Shown here piece by piece: positions 1 to 6,124 of a stretch of 37,555 nt of DNA. The notes beneath the pieces are model-generated. The model ran no database searches. It was given only the letters and a program-made list of their open reading frames with translations, and was not told where the DNA came from. The position numbers and the translations under genes were made by a program. Numbering within the stretch: position 1 is the first letter of the stretch; every line of letters begins with the position of its first letter. Location: positions 1 to 37,555 of the forward strand of contig JAJCYF010000186.1 in the NCBI GenBank assembly GCA_029263035.1, given 5' to 3'. This DNA comes from Actinomycetes bacterium. Lineage in GTDB: Bacteria; Actinomycetota; CADDZG01; JAHWKV01.

Positions 1-1
1 C

Positions 2-49
2 TCCCGGTACCTGTTCGAGCAGTTTCTCAACATGATGGAAGGGAGGTGA
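2..49 (+). CDS. carA: Carbamoyl-phosphate synthase small subunit, C-terminal end only (partial)
   Basis: Frame 2 reads SRYLFEQFLNMMEGR*, similar to CarA C-termini, directly upstream of carB. Confidence 0.75.
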   Translation, partial: SRYLFEQFLNMMEGR

Positions 50-52
50 CAC

Positions 53-166
53 ATGGGTAGAGGCGACCGTCCCAAGGTCAGGTGGAAGAAGAAGCGCCAG
101 GACAAAAAGAAGATCCGCGACAAGGCCAAGTCCGTAGCAAAGGGACTGGAAAGAAAGAAGGCTTAG
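53..166 (+). CDS. Small, highly basic 37-aa protein ([37 protein letters not shown]), unknown function
   Basis: ATG preceded by strong SD GGGAGGTGA; ends TAG 2 nt before the carB GTG; 18 of 37 residues are K/R; absent from the supplied ORF track. Confidence 0.75.
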
Positions 167-168
167 CA

Positions 169-3483
<3,315 letters not shown>

Positions 3484-3655
3484 GCACCGATTTTCGACCG
3501 GTCTCTTATTGGATGGAGATGGTGAACTTGTCTCAACTCGAAAAATCGGTCCTCACGGGTGCTGGGGGCCTGTCTACTACGCAGCCGTTTTACGGATCAG
3601 CTCATGGGTCCCGCCAGGGACTGAGCGAAGCTCATGGGTTGGGCGGAGCCCAACT

Positions 3656-4501
3656 GTGATTCAACAGCAAGCTCAGATCCTGTCGTACAAGAAGCTGCGG
3701 GACGACTATTTCCTGCTCACTATCGTGGCCCCCGAGATCGCCGAGACCGCCAAGCCCGGCCAGTTCGTGAACATCCGGCCCCCGGCGGATCGCCAGTTCA
3801 TCCTGCGCCGCCCGTTCTCTATCTACAAGGTCAACCGCCGGGGCGAGTGGGCTGCCACCATCGAGGTGGTCTTCGACATCCGCGGAGGCGGTACGGCGGC
3901 CCTGGCCTCGCTCAGGGCCCACGACATGATCGACATCGTCGGCCCCATCGGCCGGCCGTTCGCCATCCCGAAGAACCGCAACTCCTGTCTGCTGGTGGGA
4001 GGAGGCATCGGGGCGGTCCCCCTGTTCTACCTGGCCGAGGAGCTAAAGGGCGCAGGCAAGCGGGTGGACGTGCTCTGGGGGGCCCAGACCGCCAGCAAGC
4101 TTTTGAACCCCATCGATGCCAAGCGCTTCGGTGCCCAGGCAGTCTTCACCACCGAGGACGGCAGTGAGGGGGTCAAAGGACGGGTGACCGACGTGATGGA
4201 CGACCTGCTGGAGAAGTGCGGCACAGAGGTGATCTACGCCTGCGGTCCCAACGGGATGCTGGAGGCGGTCACCCGGATCGGCCAGAAGCACCGGATCCCG
4301 GTCCAGGTGGCCATGGAGGCGCTGATGGGGTGCGGCTACGGCATCTGCATGACCTGCGTTCAACCGGTATGGAACAAAAGCCACGACCAGATCGTCCACG
4401 TGCGCACCTGCGTCGACGGTCCGGTGTTCAACGGCGCACGAATCGCCTGGGATGCCTTTGCCTCGGACCCGGGCGTCCGCGTGGCCCCGGCCGGCAACTG
4501 A
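3656..4501 (+). CDS. pyrK: Dihydroorotate dehydrogenase electron transfer subunit
   Basis: FAD/NAD-binding reductase motifs (RPFSIYKV, LLVGGGIGAVPLFYLAEEL), C-terminal Cys cluster GCGYGICMTCVQPV...; GTG 3656 preceded by GGAG. Confidence 0.92.
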   Translation: MIQQQAQILSYKKLRDDYFLLTIVAPEIAETAKPGQFVNIRPPADRQFILRRPFSIYKVNRRGEWAATIEVVFDIRGGGTAALASLRAHDMIDIVGPIGRPFAIPKNRNSCLLVGGGIGAVPLFYLAEELKGAGKRVDVLWGAQTASKLLNPIDAKRFGAQAVFTTEDGSEGVKGRVTDVMDDLLEKCGTEVIYACGPNGMLEAVTRIGQKHRIPVQVAMEALMGCGYGICMTCVQPVWNKSHDQIVHVRTCVDGPVFNGARIAWDAFASDPGVRVAPAGN

Positions 4502-4505
4502 CCCA

Positions 4506-5435
4506 ATGGCCAAATCGCCCGATCTTTCCATCGACCTCGCGGGGATCCGCCTGCGCTCCCCGGTGGTCACCGCGTCGGGCTGCTTTGCCTCGGGCAAGGA
4601 AGCCTCCGAGTTCGTCGACCTGAAGAAGATCGGCGCAGTGGTGGTCAAGTCGATGACCATGGAGCCGTGGCCCGGCAAGCCCACGCCCCGCATGGCCGAG
4701 ACCCCATCGGGGATGCTGAACGCCATTGGCCTGCAGAACTACGGGGTGGAGCACTTTCTCACCGTCGACCTGCCGTGGCTGAACCGGGTGGGCGTGCCGG
4801 TGATCGCGAGCATCGCCGGCAATACGGTCCAGGAGTACATCTACGTGGCGGAGATGCTTCGAGGCGCACCGGGTGTAGTTGCGGTCGAGGTCAACATCTC
4901 CTGCCCCAACCTGGAAGACCGCAACAACATGTTTGCCCACGACGCCAAGGCCACCTCGTCGGTGATAGCCGCGGTTCGACGAGCCCTCGAGGTGCCGTTG
5001 TTCGCCAAGCTCTCGCCCAACGTCACCAGCCTGCCCGAGATCGCCGGCGCAGCCCTGGACAATGGCGCTCAGGGCATAAGCCTGATCAACACGGTGATGG
5101 GGATGGCCATCGACATCCAAACCGGCCAGCCGAAGCTGGCGGGGGTGGTGGGAGGTTTGTCCGGTCCGGCCATCCGGCCAATTGCCGTGCGCAGTGTGTT
5201 CGATGTCTTCCGCGCCTTTCCCCACGTGCCGATCATCGGGATGGGCGGGATCATGAATAGCAACGACGCCCTGGAGTTCATCCTGGCCGGGGCGACCGCG
5301 GTGGCTATCGGGACCGCCAACTTCATCGACCCCAACACCACCACCAAGGTGAACGACGGAATCCTGCAGTACATGAAGGAAAAGGGCGTAAACAACCTTG
5401 CTTCGATGCGGGGGCGGGTGAAGGTAGAGGGTTGA
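4506..5435 (+). CDS. pyrD: Dihydroorotate dehydrogenase (type 1B)
   Basis: MAKSPDLSIDLAGIRLRSPVVTASGCF..., VNISCPN, AVAIGTANF; adjacent to pyrK. Confidence 0.95.
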   Translation: MAKSPDLSIDLAGIRLRSPVVTASGCFASGKEASEFVDLKKIGAVVVKSMTMEPWPGKPTPRMAETPSGMLNAIGLQNYGVEHFLTVDLPWLNRVGVPVIASIAGNTVQEYIYVAEMLRGAPGVVAVEVNISCPNLEDRNNMFAHDAKATSSVIAAVRRALEVPLFAKLSPNVTSLPEIAGAALDNGAQGISLINTVMGMAIDIQTGQPKLAGVVGGLSGPAIRPIAVRSVFDVFRAFPHVPIIGMGGIMNSNDALEFILAGATAVAIGTANFIDPNTTTKVNDGILQYMKEKGVNNLASMRGRVKVEG

Positions 5436-6124
5436 CCGGGTTGATCGTTGCGCTGGACAGCCCGGACCTGAGTGAGGCGGAGGGACTGGCCCGGCGGCTG
5501 TCCGGCAAGGTTGCCGCGTTCAAAGTGGGCCTCACACTGTTCACCCGTCACGGCCCGGAGGCGGTGATGCGCATCGGAGAGCACGGCCCGGTGTTTTGCG
5601 ATCTCAAGCTCCACGACATTCCCCACCAGGTGGGCCTGGCAGGCGCCCAGCTGACCGGCCTGGGGGTCTGGATGTTCACCATTCACGCCTCGGGTGGTTC
5701 GGCCATGGTCGAGGCCGCGGCGAAGGCTGCCCTGGCCGGCGAGACGGTCCCCCTGGTCGCCGCGGTGACCGTCCTCACCAGCCTGGACGGAGACGATCTG
5801 GCCCGGATGGGCATCTCGGCCCAACCTCACGAGCAGGTGCTGAGGCTGGCGAAATCCGCCGTAGCCGCCGGAGCCACCGCGCTGGTCTGCTCGGCCAACG
5901 AGGTCGCCATGCTGCGCCGCGAACTGGGCGACGAGGTGGTTCTGGTGACCCCCGGCATCCGGCCGGACGGGTCCGCCGCAGGCGACCAGGCACGTGTGAT
6001 GACGCCCGCCGGCGCCGCGGCTGCAGGATCCAGCTACATCGTGGTGGGCAGACCGATCACGGATGCGCCCGATCCGGTAAAGGCGGCAGAGGGGATCCTG
6101 GCGGAACTTCAGGGACTCTCCTGA
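5432..6124 (+). CDS. pyrF: Orotidine 5'-phosphate decarboxylase
   Basis: LIVALDSPDLSEA, FCDLKLHDIPHQV, VTPGIRPDG, IVVGRPIT; TTG start overlapping the pyrD stop. Confidence 0.95.
   Translation: MTGLIVALDSPDLSEAEGLARRLSGKVAAFKVGLTLFTRHGPEAVMRIGEHGPVFCDLKLHDIPHQVGLAGAQLTGLGVWMFTIHASGGSAMVEAAAKAALAGETVPLVAAVTVLTSLDGDDLARMGISAQPHEQVLRLAKSAVAAGATALVCSANEVAMLRRELGDEVVLVTPGIRPDGSAAGDQARVMTPAGAAAAGSSYIVVGRPITDAPDPVKAAEGILAELQGLS

Follow-up and report, generated by a model that had tools for sequence, protein, structure and literature searches.

A conserved, highly basic small protein gene between carA and carB of an actinomycete: a candidate accessory ribosomal protein

The window, by which we mean the whole 37,555-nucleotide stretch of DNA that we analysed, starts inside carA and runs through carB into further genes of the pyrimidine operon (Table 1). 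Between carA and carB, and missing from the ORF track, lies a small ORF whose ATG stands 3 nt past carA, preceded by a strong Shine-Dalgarno, and whose TAG stop is followed after 2 nt by the GTG start of carB. The first-pass annotation had described this arrangement of start codon, Shine-Dalgarno, 37 codons and stop, and each element of it is confirmed from the sequence; a recount likewise agrees with the 18 K/R and 4 D/E residues that it gave for the product. Among the 165 ORFs of 25–60 aa in the window, the small ORF is the sole case in which K and R make up at least 40% of the residues. The motif SRYLF..F..L/M at the C-terminus of CarA also precedes the small ORF in relatives.

It had also been claimed that the small ORF was masked by a carB reading frame wrongly extended upstream to position 82, and this is borne out. 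Translation from GTG 169 gives a normal CarB N-terminus, it is from this position that the carB models of NCBIfam and Pfam match, and the frame upstream of the true start closes within 3–18 codons in 6 of the 11 carB-adjacent loci that we checked, so we take the carB ORF from 82 to be spurious. A gene caller can hide a small gene of this kind by extending the next gene upstream.

Table 1. Features at the carA–carB junction and in the downstream pyrimidine genes (positions in the window)
Feature	Positions	Strand	Remarks
carA, 3′ end	1–49	+	Ends in SRYLFEQFLNMMEGR, stop TGA 47–49; contig starts inside carA
Shine-Dalgarno of the small ORF, GGGAGGTGA	41–49	+	Overlaps the carA stop; 8-base match to AAGGAGGTGA
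Small basic protein gene, 37 aa	53–166	+	ATG 53, stop TAG 164–166; conserved family, purifying selection
Spurious 5′ extension of the carB ORF	82–168	+	Other frame; hides the small gene
carB, carbamoyl-phosphate synthase large subunit	169–3483	+	NF003671/TIGR01369 over cut-off; true start GTG 169
pyrK-like gene	3473–4501	+	NCBIfam match, below its curated cut-off
pyrD	4452–5435	+	NCBIfam match over cut-off
pyrF	5432–6124	+	NCBIfam match over cut-off

The small ORF has homologues of similar length and with the same sequence pattern in relatives, which a family profile built from 25 rows matches with E-values mostly between 1e-12 and 1e-16. The pattern can be written MG[RK]GDRxxxRWxKDRQRxKKxRexRKAeAKGxxRK, where G4, R6, R10, R15 and R22 are invariant and G2, D5, W11, K19 and R34 nearly so. 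Although K or R accounts for about half of all residues in the family, more than charge is conserved, because G2, G4, D5 and W11 are among these positions. Nucleotide changes are concentrated at the third codon position, and pN/pS, by which we ran the selection test that the first-pass annotation had suggested, is 0.03–0.34 in 9 of 11 compared pairs; the other two give 0.44 and 0.98, the latter from two nearly identical copies that differ by just four changes. Shine-Dalgarno matches of at least 5 bases are present at 22 of 28 homologues, compared with 11% of control sites. Two weak matches from the first search (L028 and L029) had no start codon and a short frame and were dropped as chance.

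On these comparative grounds the small ORF is a real, conserved protein gene with a K/R-rich product of 30–42 residues. It is short and wedged between two operon genes, as a chance ORF without a product might be, and the annotation had named lack of conservation in relatives, or broken frames, as grounds for giving it up. What we find is conservation of the protein in several classes and in different gene contexts, third-position divergence and pN/pS mostly well below 1, which together refute a chance ORF; an Rfam search of window positions 1–600, which matched no RNA element, also speaks against it, and we attach next to no weight to that explanation.

The suggested search in relatives, carried out with the profile, finds the small gene in 21 of the 24 genomes of the window's class, in 22 of 27, 5 of 5 and 2 of 3 genomes of three further classes, and in 12 of 199 genomes of a larger class, ten of these in one family, with one match per genome. 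In a sample of the phylum that includes the window's own relatives, 33 of 397 genomes carry it, and in most Actinomycetota of this sample the profile does not find it. Of the three negatives of the window's class, G001 and G022 are represented by assemblies that contain carB only in part. In the third, the 99%-complete genome G008, the carA-VOC-carB locus is intact and the small ORF is missing from it; this is a clean loss, and the small protein is dispensable in at least one genome. In the class scoring 22 of 27, proC is the neighbour gene, and four of the five negatives gave no proC either, so these assemblies may just lack the locus.

A phylum-blind scan of GTDB contigs with a strict DNA pattern, which diverged copies would escape, returned 21 records. 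Twenty carry titles that name Actinobacteria, Actinomycetota or one of its classes; the remaining record (L037), whose title says only "bacterium", is apparently contig C114 of G099, a genome of the same phylum. A tblastn search against plasmids gave no match to the small ORF. Judged from these sequences, the carriers are several mostly uncultured lineages of Actinomycetota. Pfam, NCBIfam and PDB, searched with single sequences and with the profile, return no entry that covers the family, which is therefore new to those libraries, and the literature yielded nothing relevant on a small ORF linked to car genes or on a protein that matches; the family may already be recorded in catalogues of small proteins or under the name "hypothetical protein".

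The genes around the small ORF differ between lineages. The window's family has the order carA-ORF-carB and the sister family f2 the order carA-HAD hydrolase-ORF-carB, the HAD-family hydrolase gene being seen at L005 and L025. In f3, the third family of the window's class, some genera have the ORF immediately in front of carB, whereas most members have a conserved gene of the glyoxalase/VOC fold (PF00903) between the two (L007, L008, L011, L013, L016, L017, L020, L021, L022 and L024). At L113, in another class, the small ORF is likewise followed by a VOC gene. Another class has the order ORF-carA-carB, and elsewhere the small gene is found behind proC, leuS or mgtC, before a VOC gene, or alone, with its sequence kept. 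It shows no linkage to genes for ribosomal proteins.

The signals for its expression differ as well. In the window's family, the position of the Shine-Dalgarno on the carA stop, with an ORF stop that touches or overlaps the carB start, suggests coupling of carA, the small ORF and carB, and translation of the small ORF there is probably also coupled to that of carB. In several relatives the small-ORF stop and the next start overlap or lie at most 12 nt apart. In family f43, TAGAGT starts 12–15 bases before the start codon in 6 of the 7 copies read, and in the seventh its place is taken by a looser TANNNT; the short distance between this −10-like element and the start codon suggests that the small gene there has its own leaderless transcript. 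At L153, L154, L157, L158, L159 and L160 of this family, the TAGAGT is not accompanied by a clear Shine-Dalgarno.

The first-pass annotation had proposed that the function of the small protein is coupled to pyrimidine/arginine precursor synthesis. It could then regulate or assist carbamoyl-phosphate synthesis or the pyrimidine operon by acting on CarA/CarB or their mRNA, and the f12 class and each of the three families in the window's class do have the gene next to carA/carB. Beyond the window's class and a single further class, however, the contexts are proC, leuS, mgtC or none, with the sequence kept, and in G008 carA-VOC-carB persists without the small ORF. That the protein is conserved while the operon varies argues against a dedicated pyrimidine role; the proposed coupling is not supported, and we consider such a regulator improbable. 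Still further down our scale is a leader-peptide-like element, of which only the act of translation would matter in coupling or tuning the translation of carB. The overlapping or closely spaced stops and starts of several relatives would suit it, but it is the amino-acid sequence that is conserved and not merely an open frame, and this is so even where no gene lies closely downstream. A leader peptide or attenuator of the pyrimidine operon was rejected on the differing contexts, the conserved peptide and the Rfam result.

AlphaFold2 predicts one helix, residues 5–36, with a mean pLDDT of 89. The composition, the single predicted helix and the conservation pattern are consistent with a ribosomal or ribosome-associated protein, and three known proteins invite comparison. 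Like bTHX (Thx, S31; TIGR04560; PDB 1fjg chain V), the central helix of which is embedded in 16S rRNA (PMC3353972), the small protein has an MG[KR]GDR N-terminus and is very small, highly basic and helical; unlike bTHX, its family has a conserved RW..DRQ..K..R helix and a length of 30–42 aa, and some members have GRGSR at the head. Thermus thermophilus bTHX scores 19.3 bits against the new profile, a value reached by 2 of 2000 full shuffles and by 639 of 2000 tail shuffles, in which the sequence was shuffled after MGKGDR, and we therefore reject homology to bTHX past the first six residues. The earlier observation that only the MGRGDR start resembles bTHX was thus correct. None of 25 small-family members exceeds the TIGR04560 cut-off, two matching weakly (best E 0.033), and no bTHX over this cut-off was found in 39 genomes of the phylum.

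Actinobacterial bS22 (PF08213, COX24_C/AURKAIP1-like) is, like the small protein, short, about half or more basic, helical and lineage-restricted (PMC10085706). It differs in that the 25 small-family members have no match to PF08213, whereas the bS22 of the window's own genome scores 35 bits. The bL37 of Mycobacterium and Cutibacterium, described from cryo-EM density, is also a small accessory ribosomal protein of Actinobacteria (PMC10085706); it appears distinct, in that no PDB sequence matched the new profile. Both are precedents for small basic helical actinobacterial proteins with a ribosomal function (PMC10085706).

The single basic helix, the conserved non-basic positions and the existence of known ribosomal proteins of the same build lead us to infer, as the most likely reading, an rRNA-binding accessory protein of the ribosome. 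From sequence, model and analogy, we judge it rather probable that the small protein, of about 30–42 residues, is an accessory component of the ribosome, or tightly associated with it, in a restricted set of lineages. Against this reading count the lack of linkage to ribosomal protein genes, the clean loss in G008 and the absence from most of the Actinomycetota sampled. The main rival is a general nucleic-acid chaperone, or a nucleoid-associated microprotein, which would act outside the ribosome with its helix binding DNA, mRNA or small RNAs generally. Composition and a single helix fit this equally well, and a PDB profile search found no sequence relative in any solved ribosome. Against it, the conserved non-basic residues G2, G4, D5 and W11 point to a defined site, and, as is established, proteins of known structure with such size and build are mostly ribosomal (PMC10085706); we regard it as unlikely, if distinctly less so than a pyrimidine regulator. 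Of the annotation's idea of a ribosome-associated or nucleic-acid-binding microprotein coupled to pyrimidine/arginine synthesis, the first part fits the basic helical character, and the coupling is not supported.

If the small protein is an accessory ribosomal protein, its initiator Met would be removed, the GRGDR N-terminus would insert into rRNA, and the basic helix of residues 5–36, with the conserved R10, W11, R15, K19, R22 and R34, would lie along an rRNA groove in the manner of bTHX, bS22/eL41 and bL37, each at its own site. In the window's family, carA, the small ORF and carB would, probably secondarily, be read in tandem by translational coupling. That the proteins form an undescribed ribosomal protein family of a few mostly uncultured Actinomycetota with its own rRNA site, perhaps the bTHX pocket entered through a convergent GKGDR head, is a more tentative proposition, on which we are almost evenly divided. 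Small lineage-specific ribosomal proteins escape annotation, and it was cryo-EM density that revealed bS22 and bL37; if ribosomal, the present family would be one predicted purely from its sequence, and as its consensus is defined and its carriers are listed, the claim is directly testable.

That the small protein replaces bS22 is rejected on co-occurrence: of 30 genomes tested, 24 have a separate bS22 gene over cut-off, and the window's own genome is among them. In that genome, at a locus outside the window (L161, G000:C232:5000-9000), proC is followed in turn by a small helix-turn-helix protein (PF12728), one more gene and then bS22 (PF08213), which thus shares a contig with proC at a distance of about 1.5 kb. 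Another class has the small gene directly behind proC.
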